44,390 bases of DNA from assembly GCA_027451885.1 (NCBI GenBank), contig DAIDHX010000036.1:1-44390 (forward strand). The letters are read 5' to 3'. The stretch's first letter is position 1. The number at the start of each line of letters is the position of its first letter. Shown here in pieces: positions 4,796 to 30,479 of the stretch. Both the position numbers and the translations under genes were made by a program. The notes below the pieces were generated by a model. It was not told the origin of the DNA. It was given only the letters and a program-made list of their open reading frames with translations, and ran no database searches. The DNA comes from Planctomycetales bacterium. Lineage in GTDB: Bacteria; Planctomycetota; Planctomycetia; Isosphaerales; Isosphaeraceae.

Positions 4796-5995
4796 TTATT
4801 CGCCGTCCCCAGCCCCTGGTCTGCGGTCATCGTGACCGGTCTCTTCAGGCTCGCGCTGCGATTCTCCATTCGCGCTTCCACGGCCGCCTGGAACGTCCTG
4901 CGAGCTCAGATCGGGTTCCTCGATGCGATACTCGGCGAGCTTCTTATGCAAGGTATTGCGATTGATTCCAAGCCGGGCGGCCGCCTTGATCTGGACGCGG
5001 TCGCAGGCCCTGAGCACTTGCTGGATGAGCTCGCGCTCGACCTGGCCCACGATCTGTTCGTGGAGGTTGTCGGCATTGGGTCCGGCTGCCAGAATGCCCT
5101 GGCGGACCAGTTCGGCCCGGAGCTGAGCGGGGTCGGAGGAACCGCTTCGCGGGCGGATCGGCCGAGGCGCAGCCTGCCCGCGCAACTGAGGGGGCAAGTG
5201 CTCGACGGTAAGCTCCGGTCCCGAGCCCAGAATCACCGCTCGTTCCACGTAGTTCTGAAGCTCACGAATATTGCCCGGCCAATCGTGCTCGCGGAAAAGG
5301 CGCATCGCGTCGGGATGGACCTTGCGCATTTCACGGCGATTCTGATCCGCGTACCGGTTCAAAAAGAACAGCACGAGCGGCTCAATATCGTCTCTGCGCT
5401 CGCGCAAAGGGGGCAAGTAAATCGGAACCACGTTCAGGCGATAGTACAGGTCTTCACGAAATCGGCCCTCGCCAATTTCCTCGAGCAGGTCGCGACTGGT
5501 GGCGGCGATCACGCGCGTATCGACCTTCTTGGTGTTGTTATCACCGACGCGTTCGAATTCGCCTTCCTGGAGCACGCGGAGCAGCTTGACCTGGAGCTTG
5601 GGCGAGGTGCTGTTGATTTCGTCGAGAAAGATGCTCCCTGTGTGCGCGGCCTCGAAGCGGCCTGTGCGATTATCGACCGCTCCTGTGAATGAACCCTTCA
5701 CATGCCCGAAGAGCTCGCTTTCGAGCAGGCTTTCTGTGAGTGCGCCGCAGTTGACGCGGATGTAAGGCCCGGTCGATCGCGGCGAAAGATCATGGATCGC
5801 GCGTGCGATGAGCTCCTTGCCTGCTCCCGTTTCGCCGACAATCAGGACGCAGGCCTTCGACGGCGCGACCTGGCGGGTCACACGCACGACTTCACGCAGT
5901 CCGGGGCTTGATCCGACCACGCCTGGCAGTGAGAGCTCGTCTCCCGGGCGGCGCATGGCCTGCGCGACGGGATTGGACTTCAGCTCCATGGGCAT
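4796..5995 (-). CDS. Sigma-54-dependent transcriptional activator without N-terminal sensory domain
   Basis: A protein of 399 residues. The ATG at 5993-5995 has AAGGAGG 8 bases upstream. The AAA+ domain runs from about residue 24 to 265: Walker A GETGAGK (54-60), GSFTGA (101-106, a GAFTGA variant that contacts sigma-54), Walker B FLDEIN (123-128), and arginine-rich sensor text PPLRERRDD. A C-terminal Fis-type helix-turn-helix is near 340-372 (AAARLGINRNTLHKKL). Only about 23 residues precede the AAA+ core, so there is no receiver, PAS, GAF or V4R input domain. It should activate RpoN promoters from distant enhancers; control may be by expression level or a partner protein. It lies 115 bases after the HEAT-repeat gene on the same strand. 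The acidic 25-residue tail has no recognised role. Confidence 0.92.
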   Translation of the reverse strand: MPMELKSNPVAQAMRRPGDELSLPGVVGSSPGLREVVRVTRQVAPSKACVLIVGETGAGKELIARAIHDLSPRSTGPYIRVNCGALTESLLESELFGHVKGSFTGAVDNRTGRFEAAHTGSIFLDEINSTSPKLQVKLLRVLQEGEFERVGDNNTKKVDTRVIAATSRDLLEEIGEGRFREDLYYRLNVVPIYLPPLRERRDDIEPLVLFFLNRYADQNRREMRKVHPDAMRLFREHDWPGNIRELQNYVERAVILGSGPELTVEHLPPQLRGQAAPRPIRPRSGSSDPAQLRAELVRQGILAAGPNADNLHEQIVGQVERELIQQVLRACDRVQIKAAARLGINRNTLHKKLAEYRIEEPDLSSQDVPGGRGSANGESQREPEETGHDDRRPGAGDGE

Positions 5996-6110: not shown

Positions 6111-8273
6111 TCATCGCCGTGCTCCGGTGGCGGGGGCCTGGGCTTGCCGGCGTTCGAGGGCGGCCATGACTCTGGCAAAGCTGGGGTCGCCGTCGGTGCT
6201 TGTTTTAGCAAGGTCGGCCAGACGCGATTCTTGCTCAGCCGAGACGAGGGGCCCGAACCGCTCGATGCTCGCCACCAGGCTCTCGACCGCGGCCTTGCGG
6301 AACGCCTCGTTCCGGGAGCGATCGAGAACCACGTCGGCCAGCGCGCGCTGGGCATCCGGGCTGGGAGTGGCGCCGAGGGCCGTCGCAAGCGGCGGGGTTG
6401 CTCCAGGTGCACCAGCGGCCGCGGCGAGAATGGGCTCGATCCGAGATAAATCGCTTGCGAACGGGCTCTTGCGATCCGCCGCAATTCGGCCGAGCAACGC
6501 CTGCGACTCGCGAGCATAAGCTTGCCGTTCCGCCTCGGTCAGCGTGCGCGGCAATACCCGAAGCTGACGCCTCAGCGAGCCTGCCTCGAGCGGCTGGACC
6601 AGATAGCGGATCCCTGGATAATCATGCCCGATGTTCGGCCGCTTGATCGGCAAATCAATCGGCCCGTAAACATACAGCGGGATGCCCTTGGTTCGTGCGT
6701 CGGCGTGGAAGTTGGTCAGTGTGTCGGGGAGCTTCCAGCCAGGTCGGAAAAGATCGTAGCTCACGAGTACAAGATCGACGTTCGCCGATCCGGCGGCCGC
6801 CCGGAATCCGATCTCGGGATTGACCTCGAGCTCGGAATCGTAATCCAGATCGACCAGCAGGCCGGCAAGCTGGCTGCCCCGGCTGGGATTGGAGTCGATC
6901 ACCACGGCTCTCGGCTTCGGCTGATGGACCAGGAACCGCGCCAGAGTCGGCACGACAAGGCTCGAGCCGGGAAATCGTGCCGTGGGTCCAAGCTCCACCA
7001 GGGCCTTCGCGGCGGCGAACTGAGTCGGGCGTTCGGAGGCCAGTAATGCTTCGGCCAGAGGATGCATTCGGCGCCCGGTCAATTGATCCCGCCGGCTCAC
7101 CGCGCCCAGTGCCTGGGCTGAAACGGCGGCGAGATCACCCCGGCCGTCGGCAATCGCGGTCTTGAGCACGTCGCTCAGGACGGCGGGACCGCTGGCCTTG
7201 GCCGCATTAAAGGCCGCGGCGTTTTTGGTTGCAAAGTCGAGCCGGCCGGTTTTCTCGACTGCCTTATCGAGCATGATGCTCACGGCCGCGACCCTGGCGT
7301 CATGATTTTTGGGATCGAGCCGCAGCGCCTCCTGGGCGAACCGGCCGCCGATCATGGCCTCGGCTTCGCTCCGACTCATTTCTTGCGCCTGGGGTGCCTG
7401 GGTCTGTGCATCCCACATCCAGAGCAGAGGCGGGTCGTCCTCGAACGTGGCCTGGTGGCGATGATAGCTCCAGGCAGCGGCGGTGAGGATCTGGGCCGAC
7501 GTCTGTTTCTGGGAAGCATAGGGCCGGCCGGTAATGCGGGCGATGGCGGCTTGTGCCGCCATTTTGAGCTGGGGGTTCGCCCCTGCCGCCGCAGGATATG
7601 CCAGGTAAGGCAGTGCCGCGCTGCTGCCAATCGAGCCCAGAATCTGGGCGGCACTGGCCGCGATCATGGGATTGCTTGCTTCAAGCAAGGTGGCGAGGCC
7701 CGGGATCGCGGAACGGTCGAGCTGACCCAGCCCAAAGAGGAGCGAGGCGCGTGCGTCCGCCGCAAGATCAGTGCGAGCCAGCTCCTGTGCGATCTGGGGC
7801 GCAGCGTGCGAGCCTGCCTCGCGCAGATGGCGGGCTCCGAAGTCTCTCTCGACGGGACCGCCGGTCAGTTCCTTCATGAAGCGCGCGACGCGCTCGGGAG
7901 ATCGCGCAACCTTACGCATTGATGCGGTAAAGGCGGTCACAAGAGGCTCAGCGTACTTCGCGGTGGCGGCATTGTCTGACAATCGGAGGATCGAACCGGC
8001 ACCGTAACGATCGCGAATGGCGATCCAGGTCGAATCATCAACCTGCGCTTTGGAAAAGCGCTCGAGATAGAGCACGGCCTTCTCGGATTGCCCAGTTCGC
8101 GTCAAATAATCAATCGCGCTCCAGAGCTCGAGCGGGGTTCGGGGATCGATGGCGAAAAGCTCCGGACCGGGGACCTGCGCCAGGGCTCGCCCGCTCGCGG
8201 CAGCCCCGAATGCCAGCCCCAGTGCGGCGAAAACCTGGGTGTAGCACAGGCGTTGCTTCAAGTTCCGGAGCAT
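6111..8273 (-). CDS. Secreted HEAT-repeat protein with an internal pseudo-receiver-like domain
   Basis: A protein of 720 residues. A typical signal peptide occupies about 1-33 (basic start, hydrophobic core, then ALAQ). Residues about 130-260 and 400-450 show HEAT/PBS-lyase-like helical repeats (IPGLATLLEASNPMIAASAAQILGS is the pattern). Around 450-560 an alpha/beta unit resembles CheY: a beta-1 end (AVVIDSNPSRG), a central strand (VDLVLVSYDLF) where the usual phospho-acceptor Asp is Ser, and a later strand (PLYVYGPID). The C-terminus returns to helical text. No catalytic motif is seen; it probably works as an exported protein-binding scaffold. It sits 73 bases after lysA and 115 before the sigma-54 activator on the same strand. 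Start support is weak (GGA 8 bases upstream). The receiver-like call is inference. Confidence 0.72.
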   Translation of the reverse strand: MLRNLKQRLCYTQVFAALGLAFGAAASGRALAQVPGPELFAIDPRTPLELWSAIDYLTRTGQSEKAVLYLERFSKAQVDDSTWIAIRDRYGAGSILRLSDNAATAKYAEPLVTAFTASMRKVARSPERVARFMKELTGGPVERDFGARHLREAGSHAAPQIAQELARTDLAADARASLLFGLGQLDRSAIPGLATLLEASNPMIAASAAQILGSIGSSAALPYLAYPAAAGANPQLKMAAQAAIARITGRPYASQKQTSAQILTAAAWSYHRHQATFEDDPPLLWMWDAQTQAPQAQEMSRSEAEAMIGGRFAQEALRLDPKNHDARVAAVSIMLDKAVEKTGRLDFATKNAAAFNAAKASGPAVLSDVLKTAIADGRGDLAAVSAQALGAVSRRDQLTGRRMHPLAEALLASERPTQFAAAKALVELGPTARFPGSSLVVPTLARFLVHQPKPRAVVIDSNPSRGSQLAGLLVDLDYDSELEVNPEIGFRAAAGSANVDLVLVSYDLFRPGWKLPDTLTNFHADARTKGIPLYVYGPIDLPIKRPNIGHDYPGIRYLVQPLEAGSLRRQLRVLPRTLTEAERQAYARESQALLGRIAADRKSPFASDLSRIEPILAAAAGAPGATPPLATALGATPSPDAQRALADVVLDRSRNEAFRKAAVESLVASIERFGPLVSAEQESRLADLAKTSTDGDPSFARVMAALERRQAQAPATGARR

Positions 8274-8346: not shown

Positions 8347-9612
8347 TTACACGAAAACGTCGAGCTCGGGCCGCAAGAGGTCGTCCACGGTTTCGCGGCG
8401 GCGCACAAGCCGCGCGTTCGCCCCATCGACCAGCACCTCGGCCGCTCGCGGGCGCGTATTGTAGTTGGAGGCCATCACCATGCCGTATGCTCCCGCCGAA
8501 AACACCGCCAGCAACTCGCCAGGCGAGATCCGCGGCAGCTCGCGATCCTTCGCCAGAAAATCGCCGCTCTCGCACACCGGACCGACCACGTCCCAGGACT
8601 GAAGTCCCGCTTCCTGGCCCAACGGCACATTCGATTCCACCGGCCAGATCCGGTGGTACGATTCGTAAAGCGCGGGCCGGATCAGGTCGTTCATGGCGGC
8701 GTCCTGGATGAGGAACCGCTTTTCTCCAGACTGCTTCGTATATATCACACGACTGACCAGAATGCCCGCGTTCCCCGCAATCACTCGCCCAGGCTCGATC
8801 GCCAGGCGGCAACCAGCGGCCTTGATTCCAGGCACAATCACCTGCGCGAATTCCTCGACCGGCCGCGCCTCATTCCCCCGATAGCTAATCCCATATCCTC
8901 CGCCCATGTTGTACCACTCGATCGGATGACCCAACTTGCGCAACTGGGCGATGAGCTCCACGCCCTTGGCCACCGCCCCCGCGTAAGGTTCCGTGCTTGT
9001 GATCTGTGAACCAATGTGCATGTGCACGCCGATCATGCGGATCGAGGGGATACTGGCGGCCTCGGTTGCCGCGCGGAGCGCACGCTCTACATCCATGCCG
9101 AACTTCGATTCCTTCTTGCCGGTCGAGATATAGCGATGGGTCCTGGGGTCCACGTCTGGATTAACCCGCAGCGCAATCGGCGCAACTCGGCCCAGACCTG
9201 CCGCGACCCGACCAATCGCCTGAAGTTCCTCCTCGCTCTCGACGTTGAACATGAGCACGCCGGCGCGAATGCCATCGGCGATCTCGAGGTCGGTTTTGCC
9301 GACCCCGGCGAAGACCGATCGCGAAGCCAGGCCTCCCGCTCGCACAACCCGCTCGAGCTCACCCCCGGAGACCACGTCGAACCCGCTCCCATGCTCCGCC
9401 ATGAGCTTGAGCAGTCCAAGGTTGGAGTTCGCCTTCACCGAGTAACAAATAAGGGGGTCAACCTCGGCAAACGCCGTCTGGAGAGCTCTGAGCGTTTCTA
9501 GAATCGAGCTCTGGCTGTACACGTAAAGGGGAGTACCGTAGGTCCTCGCAAGATCCGCGATCGCGGTTTTCTCGCAAAACAGGTGGCCGCCTTCGTAATG
9601 AAACGCATCCAT
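8347..9612 (-). CDS. lysA: Diaminopimelate decarboxylase
   Basis: A protein of 421 residues, the usual LysA length, using ATG at 9610-9612, where the text (MDAFHYEGGHLFCE) aligns with family N-termini. A start at 9699 would add 29 residues and overlap argH. It catalyses the last step of lysine synthesis, decarboxylating meso-diaminopimelate to L-lysine with PLP in the cytoplasm. Lys60 in CYSVKANSN binds PLP; the glycine-rich phosphate loop (YNMGGGYGI), an EPGR motif and the inter-subunit Cys in GPVCESGD are all present. The fold is a group IV (alanine-racemase-like) TIM barrel with a beta domain. It lies 67 bases after argH and is likely co-transcribed from the argH promoter at 11138-11167, pairing lysine with arginine synthesis. 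Confidence 0.96.
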   Translation of the reverse strand: MDAFHYEGGHLFCEKTAIADLARTYGTPLYVYSQSSILETLRALQTAFAEVDPLICYSVKANSNLGLLKLMAEHGSGFDVVSGGELERVVRAGGLASRSVFAGVGKTDLEIADGIRAGVLMFNVESEEELQAIGRVAAGLGRVAPIALRVNPDVDPRTHRYISTGKKESKFGMDVERALRAATEAASIPSIRMIGVHMHIGSQITSTEPYAGAVAKGVELIAQLRKLGHPIEWYNMGGGYGISYRGNEARPVEEFAQVIVPGIKAAGCRLAIEPGRVIAGNAGILVSRVIYTKQSGEKRFLIQDAAMNDLIRPALYESYHRIWPVESNVPLGQEAGLQSWDVVGPVCESGDFLAKDRELPRISPGELLAVFSAGAYGMVMASNYNTRPRAAEVLVDGANARLVRRRETVDDLLRPELDVFV

Positions 9613-9679
9613 CGATGAATAAGCCTCGGATCTCGCGAACGGTAAGCCCGTCGCAAACGGTGATGCATGTCTTTGAGGA

Positions 9680-11080
9680 TCAGATGTTGGTCGGGCCATG
9701 AGGTTTCAGTCGGCGCTCCCATTTTGTGAGCTCGCCCTCGACCCGCGTGGGGTTTGTTGAGCCTGCCGAGGCGAATGCCTGCACGGCGTTTTTGACTCCG
9801 AGGACGCTGCGCAATTCGGGTCCAAGGGCGGGATGCACGGCCTGGAAGTCGGCGTCATCGAGCTCCGAAAGTCTTCCCAGCCCCTTGCGTTCGCATTGGC
9901 CGACCAGCTTGCCGATGATCTCGTGCGCGGTACGCTGCGGGATCCCAAGACGGATCAGTGCTTCCATCAGTGTCGTGGCGTCCAGGAAGCCCTCTTCGAT
10001 CCGCGAGGCGATGCGGTCCCGCCGCAGCTCGGCGCCATCGACGACCACCGCGGCAAGTGCCAGCGAGGCCTCGACGGTGTCAAAGGCGTCGAACAGCGCC
10101 CGTTTATCTTCCTGCAGGTCGCGGTTGTAGGCCAGAGGCAACCCCTTCACCAGCACAAGCAGGTTGGTGAGCGCGCCAATCACCCGCGCGGAGCGCCCGC
10201 GAATGAGCTCGAGCACGTCCGGGTTCTTCTTCTGCGGCATGATGCTCGAGCCAGTGCAAAGCGCGTCCGGCAGCGCGAGGAAGCCAAATTCCTGCGTCAT
10301 CCATAGAATCCATTCCTCAGCCCACCCGGCGAGATGCTCCGCGATGAGCGTCAGGGCGAAGACGGCCTCGAGAACGAAATCGCGATCGCTGGAAGCGTCA
10401 AGGCTGTTCGCCGTGATACCGTCGAAGCCAAGTTCAGCGGCGACGAACTCGCGATCGATGGGCAAGCTCGTCCCCGCCAGGGCAGCCGATCCCAGCGGCA
10501 AGAGATTCAGTCTGCGTGCACAGTCGACCACGCGCGACCGGTCACGCTCGAGCTTTTCCACATAAGCGAGAAAGACATGGGCCGCGAGTACAGGCTGCGC
10601 GCGCTGGAGGTGCGTATAACCCGGCACAATCACCCCGGCATGGCGGCGACCGGCCTGGACGAACGCCCGTTGTAACTCACGCACGCCAGCCTCGACACGC
10701 GCGAGCGCCTCCCGCGTCCAGAGCTTCACGTCGGTTGCAACCTGATCGTTCCGGCTCCGTGCCGTGTGGAGCTTACGGCCCACGTCTCCCAGACGCTCCA
10801 CAAGTGCGGCCTCGATGTGCATATGCACATCTTCTCGAGAGAGAACAAACTCAAAGCGGCCCGCTTCGTACTCCGCCTGAATTTCAGTCAGACCACGCTC
10901 AATCTGTTGGCATTCATCCGCGGTCAGGAATCCGACCTTCGCCAGCATCCGGGCATGGGCCTTGGAGCCCATGATGTCTTGCTTGAAAAGCCTATGGTCG
11001 AAGGAGATGGATTCCGTGAACTGCTCGACCCGGCGGTCGGTGGCATCACCAAAGCGGCCGCTCCAGGGCTTATTTGACAC
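9680..11080 (-). CDS. argH: Argininosuccinate lyase
   Basis: A protein of 466 residues that splits argininosuccinate into arginine and fumarate, the last step of arginine synthesis. The fumarase/aspartase superfamily signature GSSIMPQKKNPD holds the mobile catalytic-Ser loop; HTARSRNDQVATD and TGTHLQ-type text (PGYTHLQRAQP) are also present. I choose GTG at 11078-11080 (VSNKPWSGRF), which has GGGGGA 7 bases upstream, gives the family length and leaves a leader of about 50 bases after the predicted promoter. An ATG at 11126-11128 would start only about 3 bases after that promoter's expected start point and has no ribosome-binding site. lysA follows after 67 bases. Confidence 0.96.
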   Translation of the reverse strand: MSNKPWSGRFGDATDRRVEQFTESISFDHRLFKQDIMGSKAHARMLAKVGFLTADECQQIERGLTEIQAEYEAGRFEFVLSREDVHMHIEAALVERLGDVGRKLHTARSRNDQVATDVKLWTREALARVEAGVRELQRAFVQAGRRHAGVIVPGYTHLQRAQPVLAAHVFLAYVEKLERDRSRVVDCARRLNLLPLGSAALAGTSLPIDREFVAAELGFDGITANSLDASSDRDFVLEAVFALTLIAEHLAGWAEEWILWMTQEFGFLALPDALCTGSSIMPQKKNPDVLELIRGRSARVIGALTNLLVLVKGLPLAYNRDLQEDKRALFDAFDTVEASLALAAVVVDGAELRRDRIASRIEEGFLDATTLMEALIRLGIPQRTAHEIIGKLVGQCERKGLGRLSELDDADFQAVHPALGPELRSVLGVKNAVQAFASAGSTNPTRVEGELTKWERRLKPHGPTNI

Positions 11081-11394
11081 GTTCGAGTCCCCCGAATTCC
11101 TCTCTCCTTTTGCATAATGTCCTGGCATGTGGTGGTGATTTTAGGCAGTCAATCCAGGCGATGTCAAACCGCGTGTGGTCTCCATTCTGTCTTGATGTCA
11201 CGAATCGGCTCGTGGAGGGTTTGAGAACTGAGTGCGCGCTCGATCGGTCAATCCCATCTGGCCGCGTGAGGGTGTGAGGGCGTAGACTTCAGATTCATTC
11301 AGGCTCCCGGATCGAATCTCCTTTGGGGGCTCCTGACGCATCTGGAACTTGTGTGGCGCGAGTTAAAGCGAAAACCTTGGGAGAGCGAGAGGTC
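11081..11394. other. Divergent intergenic region between argH and the RmlC-like gene
   Basis: About 314 bases hold no supported gene. The left half carries the argH promoter. For the rightward gene I find no convincing -35/-10 pair. No tRNA cloverleaf, riboswitch motif or terminator was recognised. Confidence 0.5.
11138..11167 (-). promoter_or_regulatory. Sigma-70-type promoter for argH (and probably lysA)
   Basis: On the minus strand, TTGACA (11162-11167) and TAAAAT (11138-11143) are separated by 18 bases: a perfect -35 and a 5/6 -10 hexamer. Transcription would begin near 11131, which supports the GTG start at 11080 rather than ATG at 11128. Confidence 0.62.
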
Positions 11395-24873: not shown

Positions 24874-25494
24874 ATGGCAAAAACAACGAAATCCATTCTT
24901 CTAACCATGGCGTTAGTGCTGTGCTGGGGCGGATTTGCAGGAGTCGGCCTGCTCGCGCTTCAGGCCTATAGTGCGCGCCCTGGAGATGCGGGAGCGCCGC
25001 CGGGAATCTGGCCGCAAGCGAGCGCGATTCCGATCTCGCAACGCCCGTGGTCCTTGCTCGTCTTTCTCGACCTCGGTTGCCCGTGCACGAGCGCCTCGCT
25101 TGGAGAACTGGAAAGGCTGCTCGCACACAGCGGCGATCGCTTGAGCCTGATTCTGGTCCTGGACGACTCGGCTGGAGATCGAGCCGGGGACGCGAATTCC
25201 TCTGAGCTATTGCGGCTAAGTCAACTTCCTGGAGTTGTGACAGTGCATGATCAGGATGGATCTGAAATCCGCCGGTTTGGGATGAAGACTTCCGGGCACT
25301 CCCTGCTTTATCACACCGCGGGCACTCTCGTTTATTCCGGTGGTCTGACCGCATCTCGTGGGCATCAGGGCGGAAATTATGGATGCGATGCGGTGCTCGC
25401 CTGGGTTGAGGGGCGAGATCCGGGGATCTCCGGCTGCCCTGTCTTTGGGTGTCAACTGGGCGGAGCAAGTCGTCCCGCGGAGCGCAGTCCATGA
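24874..25494 (+). CDS. Membrane-anchored thioredoxin-fold protein with CPC motif (RedB-like)
   Basis: A protein of 206 residues. A hydrophobic N-terminal segment (about 8-30) is a signal anchor or uncleaved signal. The following domain has the thioredoxin-fold start (LLVFLDLGCPCTSASLGELERLL) but with Cys69-Pro-Cys71 instead of CxxC. More cysteines lie at 171, 188 and 193, the last two in a CPVFGC cluster. Mid-domain strands (LSLILVLDD, VVTVHD) and HSLLYHTAGTLVYSGG fit a TlpA/AhpC-type fold. It resembles proteins annotated RedB in planctomycetes. It probably faces the periplasm and senses or carries redox state. Its stop overlaps the start of the hybrid kinase by 4 bases (25491-25494), pointing to a sensor partner role. 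Precise activity is unknown. Confidence 0.75.
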   Translation: MAKTTKSILLTMALVLCWGGFAGVGLLALQAYSARPGDAGAPPGIWPQASAIPISQRPWSLLVFLDLGCPCTSASLGELERLLAHSGDRLSLILVLDDSAGDRAGDANSSELLRLSQLPGVVTVHDQDGSEIRRFGMKTSGHSLLYHTAGTLVYSGGLTASRGHQGGNYGCDAVLAWVEGRDPGISGCPVFGCQLGGASRPAERSP

Positions 25495-28400
25495 CGCCTA
25501 CCGGACACGACCCGGAACATGCCCATCGCTCGATCATCGAGCGCGCTGATCAGCTTTTCGCCACCCAGTTGGATGAAAGTCAGCGACGGGTTGATTACCT
25601 CTTCGCGGTCCTGCTGATCCTGGAATGGTCTGGGCTGATCTGCACCTCTGTGCTCGTGTCGCCCTATGCCTGGCGGGATGGAACCAGTTTGATCGACAAC
25701 CACGTGGCGGTCGCGGTCTCGCTGGGCGCTGTGATCGTGAGCTTGCCGCTCGCGCTTTCGCTCTTGCGCCCCGGCGTGGTCGTGACGAGGCATGTCGTTG
25801 GGATCGGCCAGATGCTTCTGGGAGCACTTTTGATTCACCTCATGGGAGGGAGAATCGAGACACACTTCTTTATTTTTGGATCGCTGGCTTTTCTCGCGCT
25901 TTACCACGATTGGAAAGTCCTGGCAAGCGCATCCGTGATCGTGGCCATCGACCATCTGCTGCGAGGCTATTACTGGCCTCGCTCGGTCTTTGGGGTGCTC
26001 ACCGCGAGCCCCTGGCGCTGGGTGGAGCACTCGGCCTGGGTCGTGTTCGAAGACGTGGTGCTGGTGAAGGGGTGTTTTGACTGGATCCAGCAGCAGCGAG
26101 AGCTGGCGTTCCGCCAGGCAGAGATCGAGGAGTCACACGCCCAGGTAGAGCGGATCGTGGAGGAACGCACGGCCGAATTGCGAAGCGCGAATGCCGAGCT
26201 TAAACGGCAAGCCGATGAGCTTCGGCGCGCGGAGCTGCTCGATCGCAGGCTGGCGGCGATCGTGGAATCCTCCGATGACGCCATTATCAGTATCAGCCTT
26301 GAGGGAATCATCACTTCGTGGAACCGGGGAGCCGAGCAAATCTTCGGCTTCACATCCATCGAAGTCCTTGGCCGGTCGATCACGGTTCTCTCACCGATCG
26401 ACCGCTTCGATGAAACTCCGCGAATTCTCGCCCGGCTCTGGACCGGTGAGCGGCTCGAGCATTACGAGACGGTACGTCGAGCCAAGGACGGCCGGTTAAT
26501 CCACGTCTCGCTCACGATCTCTCCGATGCGAGACAGATCGGAGCGAATTGTCGGCGGCGCCATGACCGCGCGGGATGTCACCGAGGCGAAAGCGGCACAC
26601 GATCGAATGCAAACCCAGCACTCGGCCATGCGCGTGCTCACGGAAGCAGACTCCATCGAAGTCGCAATGCCGGAGCTTCTGCGCGTCATCGGCGAGACGC
26701 TCCATTTGCAGTGCGGTGAGTTCTGGCTCCTCGACCCCGAAACGAAAACGCTCCGCTGCGGCGACAACTGGTGCCAGGATCCCGCGACCGAAGCGATTCG
26801 CCATTTTCTGCGGTCATCCCGCACATATCAATTTGCGACAGGCGTCGGTCTGGCTGGCCGTGTCTGGGAACTCGGCGTTCCTCTTTGGAGTGCTGATCTG
26901 GAATCGGACCCGCACTTTTCCCGCCTCGAGCTCAGCCAGCCCGCGGGATTCAAGTCCGCGGTTGCGTTTCCACTCGCCGTCGGCGATGCCTTTTACGGCG
27001 TGGTCACGTTCCTGACGCACACGCGAATCCAGATGGATCAGGCCCTTGAGGATCTGCTCGTGACCCTTGGGCGCCAGATTGGATTGTTTGTCGAACGCCG
27101 CCTGGCCGACACAGCGTTACGAGCAGCCCGCGACGAGCTCGAAATCCGGGTCCAGGAACGAACGGCGGAGCTGGAGCTCATCAATTCAACGCTCAAAGAT
27201 GAAGTCGCGGAACGGAGGCGCAGTGAAGAAGCCCTGCGCGAAAGCGAAACTCGATTTCGCGTCGTTTCAGAAGCCATTCCCCAAATCCTGTGGGTCTTCG
27301 GTGGGGATGGCCAGGAAGAGTATCTCAATCACCGCTGGTTTGAGTATTTCGGGGTTGATCCGCACGCGCCTCGCACAAGCGACACCTGGACCAAATTCCT
27401 GCATCCCTCCGACCTGGAGCGAACGGTCGATCGCTGGAATCATTCACTCGCGACGGGAGAGTCGTACGAGATCGATTATCGGCTGCGCCGGCACGATGGT
27501 GAATACCGCTGGTTCCTGGCGCAGGGTCTGCCGCAAAGAGATTCGAACGGGGCGGTCGTGCGATGGTTTGGCACCTGTACCGACATCGACGATCAGCGCC
27601 GCGCCCAGCAGATTCTTCAAGACGCGCACGACGAGCTGGAACGGCGCGTCCTGGAACGCACGGATGAGCTGCGCAAGGTGAATGAATCGCTCGTGGTGGA
27701 AGTCGCTGAGCGAATTCGAGCCGAGGAGCAGGCCCGCGAGCGCGAACGCTTTGTCGAGAGTCTTACCCAGGCCAACCCCTCGATCATTTATCTTTTCGAT
27801 CTGCAGATCTGCCATGTCGTCTGGGCAAACGCTCGGGTGACGAGCTTGCTCGGTTACAAGCTTGATGACATCTATGAGCATCCTGGTCCACAACTCGTCG
27901 ATGATTGCGTTCATCCCGATGACGCGACCAGGCTTGGCTTCACGGGCGACGGCCGGCGATTCCAGGATGTGGCCGACGGAGGTGTGCTCGAGTTCGACAC
28001 GCGGGTCCGCCACGCGGACGGAACCTGGCGCTGGCTGCGTGCGCGGGAGTTGATCTTCGAGCGCGACTCCGCGGGAGAGCCGAAGCTCGTACTTGGAACC
28101 GCCGAGGATATCACGGAGCGCAAGGAAGCCGAGGATCGCTTCAAGGCGCTTTTCGAACAATCAAGCAATGCACACATCTTATTTTCTGAAGAGGAAGGTG
28201 TTATTGATTGTAATCGTGCGGCGCTCGAGCTTTACGGCTGCCGCGACCTGTCGCAGATGCTGGGACGTCATCCGGCGGACTTCGGGCCTGAGGAACAGCC
28301 GGATGGGCGACTCTCCTCGGTTGAGCGCGTGCGGTATGACGCCCTCGCCCGCAACGAGGGCTTCCATCGTTTTGATTGGACCATCCAGCGGTTCGATAAC

Positions 28401-30479
28401 CGAGCCTACGTGCCTTGCGAGGTGACCCTTTCGCCAATCGACGTTGCGGGGCGTGAGTTGTTACTGGTGGTCCTGCACGACTTGACGGAGCGCAAACAGG
28501 CCGAGATCGCACTGCGAAACGCCAAGGAAGCCGCTGAGTCCGCCAGCCGCGCCAAGAGTGAATTCCTCGCCAACATGAGCCACGAGATCCGGACGCCGAT
28601 GAATGGGATCATCGGCATGACTGAGCTCGCGCTCGACACCGAGCTGAATGCTCGCCAGCGCGAGTATTTGAGTCTCGTGAAAAGCTCGGCCGATGCGCTG
28701 CTCACGGTGATCAACGACATCCTCGATTTTTCCAAAATCGAAGCTGGAAAGCTTACGCTTGACCCAGCGCCCTTCTCTCTGCGTACGGTGGTGGAAGATA
28801 CCCTGCGGACCCTGGCGCTGCGGGCGCACTCCAAAGGCCTCGAGCTTGCCAGCCGGATTGGCCCCGAGTTGCCAGAGGATCTCATTGGCGACTCCGGCCG
28901 TTTGCGGCAGGTCCTGGTCAATCTGGTTGGCAATGCCATCAAGTTCACCGAGCGCGGCGAGGTTGTCGTCCACGTCGGCCTTGAGGATCACGGCGACAGC
29001 ACAATTCGATTGCGATTCGCCGTTTCAGACACCGGGATTGGCATCCCCGTCGACAAGCTATCCCGGATCTTTGAGCCGTTTGAACAAGCCGATGGTTCGA
29101 CGACCAGGCGCTTTGGTGGAACCGGGCTTGGTTTGACCATCTCCGTCAAACTGGTGGAGCTCATGGGTGGCCGGCTTTGGGTTGAGAGCCAGCCTGGAGT
29201 GGGGAGTACATTCTGGTTCACGCTCGCATTCACGGCGGCGCCGAAGGATGCCTCGGCGGGTCCGTCGCCATCGCTCGTCGAGCTTGAAAATCTGCCGATT
29301 CTGATCGTCGACGACAATCAGACAAATCGGATGATTCTGCAAGAATTGCTTGTGAACTGGGGAATGAGCCCGACGTCGGTCGAGAGCGGTCGAGCCGCGC
29401 TTGGGATCTTGCGGGCCTATGCCGCCAAGGGCTCACCGATCCCGGTGGCGCTTGTGGACGGCATGATGCCCGAGATGGACGGTTTTGAGCTGGCCGCGGC
29501 GATCGCTTCCGATGCAACAACTGGCAGCCCGAAGGTCATTCTGCTGACTTCCGCTGGCTGCGATGAAAACTCCGAAACGTGTCGTTCGAAAGGCATCGTC
29601 GCTTGCCTCACCAAGCCCATTCGACAGTCCGAGCTATTTGACACCCTTGTCAATGCTGCGCACCGTGAACGTCCCATGCCGGATAGCGCGTTCGCGCCGC
29701 CCGTCGTCTCAGTACTGACCAGCGGTCATCGGTTGCGCGTACTTCTGGCGGAAGATCACGCCGTGAATCAAAAAGTGGCCACGCGCTTGCTCGAGCAGCT
29801 CGGCCACGAGACGCATGTGGCCGCCGATGGGCTTCAGGCCGTTCGGGCCTGGGAGTCGGGAACGTTTGACGTCATTCTCATGGATGTTCAAATGCCTGAG
29901 ATGGATGGGTTCGAGGCGCTGCGGGTAATCCGCGAGCGCGAGCAAGCGCTCAATCAGAAAACACCGATCATCGCGCTCACGGCCCATGCCATGCAGGGCG
30001 ATCGCGAGCGCTGCCTCGCCGCAGGATTCGATGGCTATCTCGCCAAGCCGGTACGCCGCGCAGAGCTTGCGGCGGCGCTCGGGCAAGTTGCGCAGTCACC
30101 CCTCGTCCTGCCGGTTTCCAGGATCACGCACGACACGCAATTCCTTGAGAATCTGTCCGGCATTTGCAGCGGCGACGAAGGCTTCATGCGTGAGCTTGCC
30201 GAGTCGTATCTGGAGTCTGTCCCGAAGGCGATCACAGGGCTTGAACAGGGCTTCGCCGCGCACGATTTCGCGCGAATCGTTGCCGAAGCCCACGGAATCA
30301 AGGGAATCAGCCGAACCGTGGCCGCGCAGGCGGTTGCGGACGCGGCCTCGCGAATTGAGGCGGCGGGAAGACGCGGCGATCTCGTCGCTGCTGCTGCCGC
30401 ATTTTCTTGCCTCGCCATAGCGTGGAAACCGATCCGCGAAACTCTGGAGGGTTTTGTTCTCGTGGAGAGCCGATCATGA
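25491..30479 (+). CDS. Giant hybrid histidine kinase: 6-TM His-rich domain, PAS, GAF, 3 PAS, HisKA, HATPase, 2 receivers, Hpt
   Basis: A protein of 1662 residues starting at the ATG that overlaps the previous stop. Order: about six membrane spans (20-195) with conserved-looking His116, His125, His139, His155 and His180 at membrane faces; a coiled coil (205-245); PAS 250-365 (ESSDDAIISISLEGIITSWN); GAF 376-530; PAS 583-703, 758-878 and 883-1000; HisKA with His1031 (MSHEIRTP); HATPase about 1133-1247 (N, G1 DTGIGIP, GGTGLGL); receiver 1 with Asp1323; receiver 2 with Asp1465 (LMDVQMPEMDG); Hpt with His1601 (AHGIKG). It should autophosphorylate and relay phosphate through receiver and Hpt to a response regulator, most simply the one encoded next. 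All phosphotransfer residues are present. Input is probably via the membrane domain with the thioredoxin-fold protein, plus cytoplasmic PAS/GAF ligands. Confidence 0.93.
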   Translation: MTPTGHDPEHAHRSIIERADQLFATQLDESQRRVDYLFAVLLILEWSGLICTSVLVSPYAWRDGTSLIDNHVAVAVSLGAVIVSLPLALSLLRPGVVVTRHVVGIGQMLLGALLIHLMGGRIETHFFIFGSLAFLALYHDWKVLASASVIVAIDHLLRGYYWPRSVFGVLTASPWRWVEHSAWVVFEDVVLVKGCFDWIQQQRELAFRQAEIEESHAQVERIVEERTAELRSANAELKRQADELRRAELLDRRLAAIVESSDDAIISISLEGIITSWNRGAEQIFGFTSIEVLGRSITVLSPIDRFDETPRILARLWTGERLEHYETVRRAKDGRLIHVSLTISPMRDRSERIVGGAMTARDVTEAKAAHDRMQTQHSAMRVLTEADSIEVAMPELLRVIGETLHLQCGEFWLLDPETKTLRCGDNWCQDPATEAIRHFLRSSRTYQFATGVGLAGRVWELGVPLWSADLESDPHFSRLELSQPAGFKSAVAFPLAVGDAFYGVVTFLTHTRIQMDQALEDLLVTLGRQIGLFVERRLADTALRAARDELEIRVQERTAELELINSTLKDEVAERRRSEEALRESETRFRVVSEAIPQILWVFGGDGQEEYLNHRWFEYFGVDPHAPRTSDTWTKFLHPSDLERTVDRWNHSLATGESYEIDYRLRRHDGEYRWFLAQGLPQRDSNGAVVRWFGTCTDIDDQRRAQQILQDAHDELERRVLERTDELRKVNESLVVEVAERIRAEEQARERERFVESLTQANPSIIYLFDLQICHVVWANARVTSLLGYKLDDIYEHPGPQLVDDCVHPDDATRLGFTGDGRRFQDVADGGVLEFDTRVRHADGTWRWLRARELIFERDSAGEPKLVLGTAEDITERKEAEDRFKALFEQSSNAHILFSEEEGVIDCNRAALELYGCRDLSQMLGRHPADFGPEEQPDGRLSSVERVRYDALARNEGFHRFDWTIQRFDNRAYVPCEVTLSPIDVAGRELLLVVLHDLTERKQAEIALRNAKEAAESASRAKSEFLANMSHEIRTPMNGIIGMTELALDTELNARQREYLSLVKSSADALLTVINDILDFSKIEAGKLTLDPAPFSLRTVVEDTLRTLALRAHSKGLELASRIGPELPEDLIGDSGRLRQVLVNLVGNAIKFTERGEVVVHVGLEDHGDSTIRLRFAVSDTGIGIPVDKLSRIFEPFEQADGSTTRRFGGTGLGLTISVKLVELMGGRLWVESQPGVGSTFWFTLAFTAAPKDASAGPSPSLVELENLPILIVDDNQTNRMILQELLVNWGMSPTSVESGRAALGILRAYAAKGSPIPVALVDGMMPEMDGFELAAAIASDATTGSPKVILLTSAGCDENSETCRSKGIVACLTKPIRQSELFDTLVNAAHRERPMPDSAFAPPVVSVLTSGHRLRVLLAEDHAVNQKVATRLLEQLGHETHVAADGLQAVRAWESGTFDVILMDVQMPEMDGFEALRVIREREQALNQKTPIIALTAHAMQGDRERCLAAGFDGYLAKPVRRAELAAALGQVAQSPLVLPVSRITHDTQFLENLSGICSGDEGFMRELAESYLESVPKAITGLEQGFAAHDFARIVAEAHGIKGISRTVAAQAVADAASRIEAAGRRGDLVAAAAAFSCLAIAWKPIRETLEGFVLVESRS

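Follow-up and report, generated by a model that had tools for sequence, protein, structure and literature searches.

The window, i.e., the whole stretch of DNA analyzed here (44,390 nucleotides of a contig assigned to a Planctomycetales bacterium), carries on its minus strand an open reading frame of 720 amino acids (6111-8273), which the translation and an AlphaFold2 model present as an exported-looking HEAT/TPR-type alpha-solenoid protein with a nested pseudo-receiver. The preliminary description of this DNA had given the same frame, and it was reproduced exactly; a search of the genome of origin returned one match, i.e., the gene is present as a single copy. On the same strand, the next gene downstream encodes a sigma-54 activator with AAA+ and Fis-type HTH domains (4796-5995, read from the ATG at 5995), in which no sensor or receiver domain was detected by Pfam from that start codon. 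Upstream lie lysA (diaminopimelate decarboxylase, 8347-9699; TIGR01048, E-value 1.3e-147) and argH (argininosuccinate lyase, 9680-11128; TIGR00838, E-value 4e-166), both also on the minus strand. The search for a sigma-54 promoter near the gene gave 13 matches in the window (up to 2 mismatches) vs. 20.5 expected by chance, and there is therefore no sigma-54 signal. Further along the window (25449-30479), a large hybrid histidine kinase was found, which combines PAS, GAF, and Hpt domains with two receiver stretches.

In the full-length model (mean pLDDT 85.5, pTM 0.74), helices form an N-terminal alpha-solenoid (residues 47-447, positions 6933-8135) and a C-terminal one (residues 580-712, 6138-6536), and between them sits the predicted pseudo-receiver of CheY fold (residues 453-572, 6558-6917), which was delimited from the model together with structure and profile comparisons. 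A beta-hairpin within the N-terminal solenoid (residues 283-298) carries W285 and W287, of which the former is invariant and the latter nearly invariant in a 23-sequence family alignment. The presence of HEAT repeats, claimed earlier from the sequence, was borne out by Pfam HEAT_2 (E-value 4.5e-10, 40.1 bits vs. a curated cut-off of 27.7, best stretch at residues 165-244) and by the helical-repeat model; HEAT repeats are the sole Pfam family above cut-off in the query, and HEAT_2 was matched by 16 of the 17 members of the alignment used for the domain profile. The NCBIfam collection gave nothing for the query at E-value ≤ 0.1. When the whole chain was used in a fold search, armadillo, HEAT, and TPR solenoids came out on top, with long, loose alignments of low TM-score, and CheY3 appeared at rank 27. 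As far as sequence and model can tell, the protein is a HEAT-repeat solenoid: it shares helical repeats with the HEAT_2 (PF13646) alpha-solenoids, although here they are interrupted by the receiver domain and by a W-x-W hairpin.

The family was recovered in 43 of 45 Isosphaerales genomes (26/26 of the good ones) and, by a search with the query sequence alone (E-value ≤ 1e-5), in 105 of 294 genomes across the phylum, its own genome included (66/155 of the good ones). Singulisphaera acidiphila, Paludisphaera soli, and Aquisphaera insulae are among the named relatives, and the assignment to the family Isosphaeraceae and the order Isosphaerales was deduced from them. A contig scan with the query alone returned nothing, while a scan with a family alignment returned 16 loci, each with a title that refers to Planctomycetes or one of their genera. 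The alignment used for the residue counts below comprises 84 members: 34 of the 43 Isosphaerales genomes with a match contributed to it, among them that of the query, as did 50 of the 104 genomes with a match elsewhere in the phylum sample. Duplicate copies of a locus were removed, and 5 of the members have no receiver domain. In two loci (L076 and L079, from genomes G313 and G309), the N-terminal part (approximately residues 46-124) was matched again just upstream, which suggests either a duplication or an assembly fault.

The preliminary description had likened residues 450-560 or so to CheY and had named a comparison of the predicted fold with CheY as the check. This comparison was run, and the predicted fold is that of CheY: the elements of a (beta-alpha)5 arrangement span residues 455-571 of the full-length model, between the helical regions, and residues 440-585 modelled alone (AlphaFold2, 17 sequences) gave the same (beta-alpha)5 fold with a mean pLDDT of 82.9 and a pTM of 0.76. 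Foldseek against the PDB returned CheY3 as best match (E-value 6.9e-7), CheY3 and CheY4 led the matches, and, judging by their titles, all 50 of those listed were receivers or response regulators (chain 4 of 8wiw, from a flagellar C ring, was taken by us as CheY). Re-alignment of the PDB matches with VIA-align put CheY4 first (Z 16.6, 120 residues, 2.0 Å). At the sequence level, Pfam Response_reg gave no match at E-value ≤ 1 in the query or in the other 16 members of the 17-sequence alignment; another Isosphaerales member (L116) matched at 0.083, and among 40 more diverse members, 36 of them with the domain, 12 gave a match at E-value ≤ 1. The best of these, L061 (5e-8), lies over the curated cut-off, while the others shown fall under it. 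In addition, a profile-profile comparison by hhalign of 17 family domains with 20 ordinary receivers of the own genome reached a probability of 93.1% and an E-value of 3.1e-7. This profile E-value, together with the Response_reg matches in distant relatives, marks the nested domain as a receiver homologue by both predicted fold and sequence, and it shares with CheY and with Pfam PF00072 not just a fold but also a sequence homology that is detectable through the family. Two other explanations were considered: a chance Rossmann-like fold is ruled out by the Z-score and the profile homology, and an assembly or frameshift artefact by the presence of the domain in 79 of the 84 aligned members.

At the five catalytic positions of a receiver, the query has D, S, S, G, and Q. 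The first is D460 (6894-6896), at the position of CheY Asp12, and the acceptor position is taken by S505 (6759-6761), which pairs with the phosphorylated Asp57 of CheY in the profile alignment as well as in a joint alignment with the 20 receivers of the own genome, in agreement with the serine that had been read there from the sequence. The accompanying claim that the acceptor Asp is missing stands for the query, with the refinement that the loss does not extend to the whole family, in which 16 of 79 domain-bearing members keep Asp (and just 5/79 the catalytic Lys). All five catalytic residues together were found in none of these 79 members vs. all 20 ordinary receivers, a difference that also separates the family from CheY. 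Within Isosphaerales (n = 34), the first acidic residue is D in 32, the second acidic residue is kept in 1, and Thr/Ser and Lys in 0 members, while the acceptor position shows D in 12, S in 9, A in 9, E in 3, and G in 1. Outside Isosphaerales (n = 45), the first acidic residue is D/E in 34, the second is kept in 13, the acceptor D in 4, Thr/Ser in 8, and Lys in 5, and the acceptor position is occupied by R, H, S, E, D, Q, N, V, K, C, or T. Counted per member (n = 79), no catalytic residue is kept in 4, one in 47, two in 24, three in 2, and four in 2. As the decay extends across all five positions in the family, the serine of the query is part of a general decay and not a single substitution. 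Judged by sequence and model, the nested domain is accordingly best described as a putative pseudo-receiver, a receiver fold that lacks the key phosphotransfer residues, and the census rules out a phospho-switch with ordinary chemistry. The earlier proposal of a pure binding module would fit a query that is without the acceptor Asp, one acidic residue, Thr, and Lys. The two members with four of the five residues, L061 (1372-3684; D, S, D, T, K) and L064 (2681-5209; E, D, S, S, K), are both signal-bearing and from outside Isosphaerales, and they offer themselves as test cases for a working extracytoplasmic receiver.

Across the phylum, conservation within the domain is found in beta1, beta3, beta4, and the alpha1-beta2 and alpha3-beta4 loops, and not on the phosphorylation face. 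The alpha3-beta4 loop (D525-A-R527-T528-KGI-P532, 6678-6701) is among the domain's most widely conserved motifs in the family, with D525 in 69, R527 in 71, T528 in 67, and P532 in 72 of 79 members, compared to 3, 3, 4, and 11 of 20 at the same positions of the ordinary receivers, where this stretch is loosely aligned. The old active-site pocket was considered as the main conserved site, but the phylum-wide scores do not support it, as they are highest for alpha1-beta2 and alpha3-beta4, which belong to the set of four loops on the opposite face. Within Isosphaerales, the beta1-alpha1 and beta4-alpha4 loops are also well conserved, and D460, N462 (91%), W513, and G537 (33/34) are kept. The retention of D460, N462, and G537 in this order could point to a switch by another route, in which D460 and its neighbours would bind a metal, a phosphate, or a phosphorylated ligand outside the cytoplasm, and the Isosphaerales members with an acceptor Asp as well as the two outside members with four of five residues are consistent with it; we nevertheless consider such a switch quite unlikely, given an acceptor that drifts between D, S, A, E, and G within a single order and more widely outside it, and given that D460 and G537 are weaker outside Isosphaerales (29 and 19 of 45, respectively). 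Taken as a whole, the receiver domain is about as conserved as the solenoid and no more, so that nothing marks it as the business end of the protein.

In a quick, midpoint-rooted tree built from the solenoid columns without those of the receiver, in which several long branches are unsure, Isosphaerales fall on one branch and the topology largely follows the group codes; the sequence comparisons support a family that is probably old and vertically inherited. The five members without the domain (L020, L021, L024, L029, and L052; 588-626 aa) form one nested clade beside a domain-bearing member in the same tree, and their solenoid closes over the gap. Most simply, these relationships would be explained by one old insertion of the receiver and one later loss. 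A different kind of variation was observed in L118 (6040-9264), an ORF of 1075 aa whose pseudo-receiver is split between alpha4 and beta5 by an insertion of some 200 residues; Pfam recognized no known domain in this long insert, and matches are broken at the same place in four genomes of that genus, the one of L118 included. Could the domain then be a purely structural insertion that acts as a spacer within the solenoid and binds nothing? A clade that keeps the rest of the protein without it and an ORF that tolerates a long insertion within it would both agree with this, but a spacer is hard to reconcile with a domain that 79 of 84 members across the phylum share, that bears a family-specific loop signature, and that roughly equals the surrounding solenoid in conservation, and we regard this possibility as highly improbable.

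The N-terminus was described earlier as a clear signal peptide, and its inspection agrees: residues 1-32 (8178-8273) begin with MLRNLKQR, continue with a hydrophobic stretch, and end in RALA, with cleavage proposed after ALA, at 32/33, before the Q of QVPGPE. The signal-peptide check named with that claim was made by inspection, a crude rule, and cysteine content, and n-region, h-region, and A-x-A site are all present. Q33 is nearly invariant across the 23-sequence alignment (query included), and residues 1-37 fall below a pLDDT of 50 in the full-length model. By inspection, relatives within Isosphaerales have Sec-type N-termini like that of the query, many with A-x-A directly before Q, and members from distant classes have signal-like N-termini that differ from it in sequence. 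In 79 of 84 members, the core is immediately preceded by a hydrophobic stretch (mean hydropathy ≥ 1.5 over 12 residues), and a loose cleavage-site pattern lies near the core in 54 of 84; against export, 8 of 84 mature regions contain a 19-residue stretch above 1.6 hydropathy. A rule-based signal predictor was passed by 83 of 84 members (any start codon in the first 200), yet it was given little weight because neighbour proteins pass too: among 54 of these (clusters taken as lysA, argH, and the activator), false positives amounted to 22 with any early Met and 7 at the first start.

Cysteine content says more on export than this predictor, at least within Isosphaerales, where cysteine is entirely absent from 28 of 34 mature proteins (0.025 per 100 residues; lengths of 664-896 residues), whereas each of the 72 matched parts taken from lysA, argH, and activator proteins contains it (0.92-1.24 per 100). 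Outside Isosphaerales the depletion is weaker (12 of 50 members without any, 0.35 per 100), and the ordinary receiver proteins of the own genome stand at 0.60 per 100, 6 of the 20 being free of cysteine. Together, these sequence features support export of the 720-aa protein and cleavage of its predicted signal peptide. Four weak receiver matches of the own genome that were inspected show no signal peptide by eye. One of them (25.3 bits), at the N-terminus of the ORF L166:1453-2637, is perhaps another pseudo-receiver, in a protein that resembles a pilus-assembly ATPase of the TadZ/CpaE kind.

The gene neighbourhood is well kept within Isosphaerales: 19 of 20 loci have lysA upstream of the gene and, as the next gene downstream on its strand, the sigma-54 activator, and 18 of 20 have argH further upstream (one contig ends early). 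None of the three is present at L117, and in L105 just a 91-aa piece of lysA was matched. Of the 40 loci outside Isosphaerales, 20 of which have flanks of a few kb or less, 8 have lysA upstream, at a distance of up to 450 bases in 7 of them and of 1.8 kb in the other; argH directly precedes the gene in 3, and the activator follows it within 550 bases in 5. The link to these neighbours could be functional or inherited gene order. Since the genes conserved alongside encode cytoplasmic enzymes and a transcription activator, they argue against export and would suit a cytoplasmic or inner-face-anchored regulator, whose N-terminus stays inside and whose pseudo-receiver acts in trans on the downstream activator, much as PspA acts on PspF. 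The position of the activator next downstream and the failure of Pfam to find a sensor domain in it fit such a regulator. We regard it as unlikely in view of the Sec-type N-termini across Isosphaerales and the signal-like ones in distant classes, the near absence of cysteine in Isosphaerales members, unlike the 72 neighbour proteins, and the 35 of 40 other loci with no activator next downstream (half with short flanks). Direct contact with the activator is likewise not proposed, because the activator is cytoplasmic and the 720-aa protein looks exported.

Receivers and pseudo-receivers are regarded as cytoplasmic signalling parts, and FrzS, one of the closest cases known, is found inside the cell and is not known to carry a HEAT solenoid. 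A 2025 review (PMC12632262) defines pseudo-receivers (PsRs) as receiver folds without the key phosphotransfer residues, identified computationally as receivers, and calls their control a mystery. In the bacterial PsRs it covers, loss affects the second acidic residue more often than the first, as in the family described here, and protein binding is one of the mechanisms discussed; the present domain differs in that it lies within a solenoid that is apparently exported, and in that Pfam recognizes just some of the relatives and not the query. The pseudo-receiver of FrzS from Myxococcus xanthus binds SgmX via alpha3-beta4-alpha4 (PMC12632262), i.e., on the side where the family of the 720-aa protein keeps its conserved loop, although the partner there is a separate protein. 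The main text of the review does not contain the words "periplasm", "extracellular", "extracytoplasmic", "signal peptide", or "planctomycet", and the term "extracytoplasmic receiver domain", as used in PMC11754779, refers to the domains with which histidine kinases sense their signals. Searches of the open-access literature uncovered no case of a CheY-type receiver that is exported, and those of PMC10632474 and PMC8567305 for essentiality or proteome data yielded nothing on the 720-aa protein. Pseudo-receivers as a kind are already known, and it is the apparent export and the nesting in a solenoid that set this one apart.

We consider it moderately probable that the protein is a Sec-exported envelope scaffold, in which the nested receiver fold is a fixed docking element and not a switch. 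The 720-aa chain would be exported via Sec into the planctomycete cell envelope as a long HEAT/TPR-type alpha-solenoid interrupted by the receiver domain, which would descend from ordinary two-component receivers and have lost their phosphotransfer chemistry. As the histidine-kinase/ATP chemistry that serves a receiver is lacking outside the cytoplasm, we infer for the domain a role as a fixed docking element. The alpha3-beta4 loop (DxRTxxxP), together with alpha3 and beta4, may clamp the domain to the solenoid or bind a partner, while the solenoid would hold an envelope protein or peptide. A docking contact at or near alpha3-beta4 is suggested because this loop is conserved phylum-wide and because FrzS binds its partner through the same part of the fold. 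Whether events also unfolded in the following order appears to us about evenly balanced: a receiver was captured in an exported solenoid early in Planctomycetota, its chemistry was lost stepwise, as would be indicated by the two sampled members that still keep four of the five catalytic residues, and it became an envelope docking module that binds via its alpha3-beta4 edge.

No ordinary kinase could serve a receiver that lies outside the cytoplasm, and those of its parts that remain conserved should therefore reveal which surfaces of the fold serve binding only. The family provides a natural series within one architecture, from a nearly complete receiver (D, S, D, T, K) to fully dead ones. It also marks out a conserved, predicted envelope protein of Planctomycetes, for which no earlier description was found in the open-access literature.
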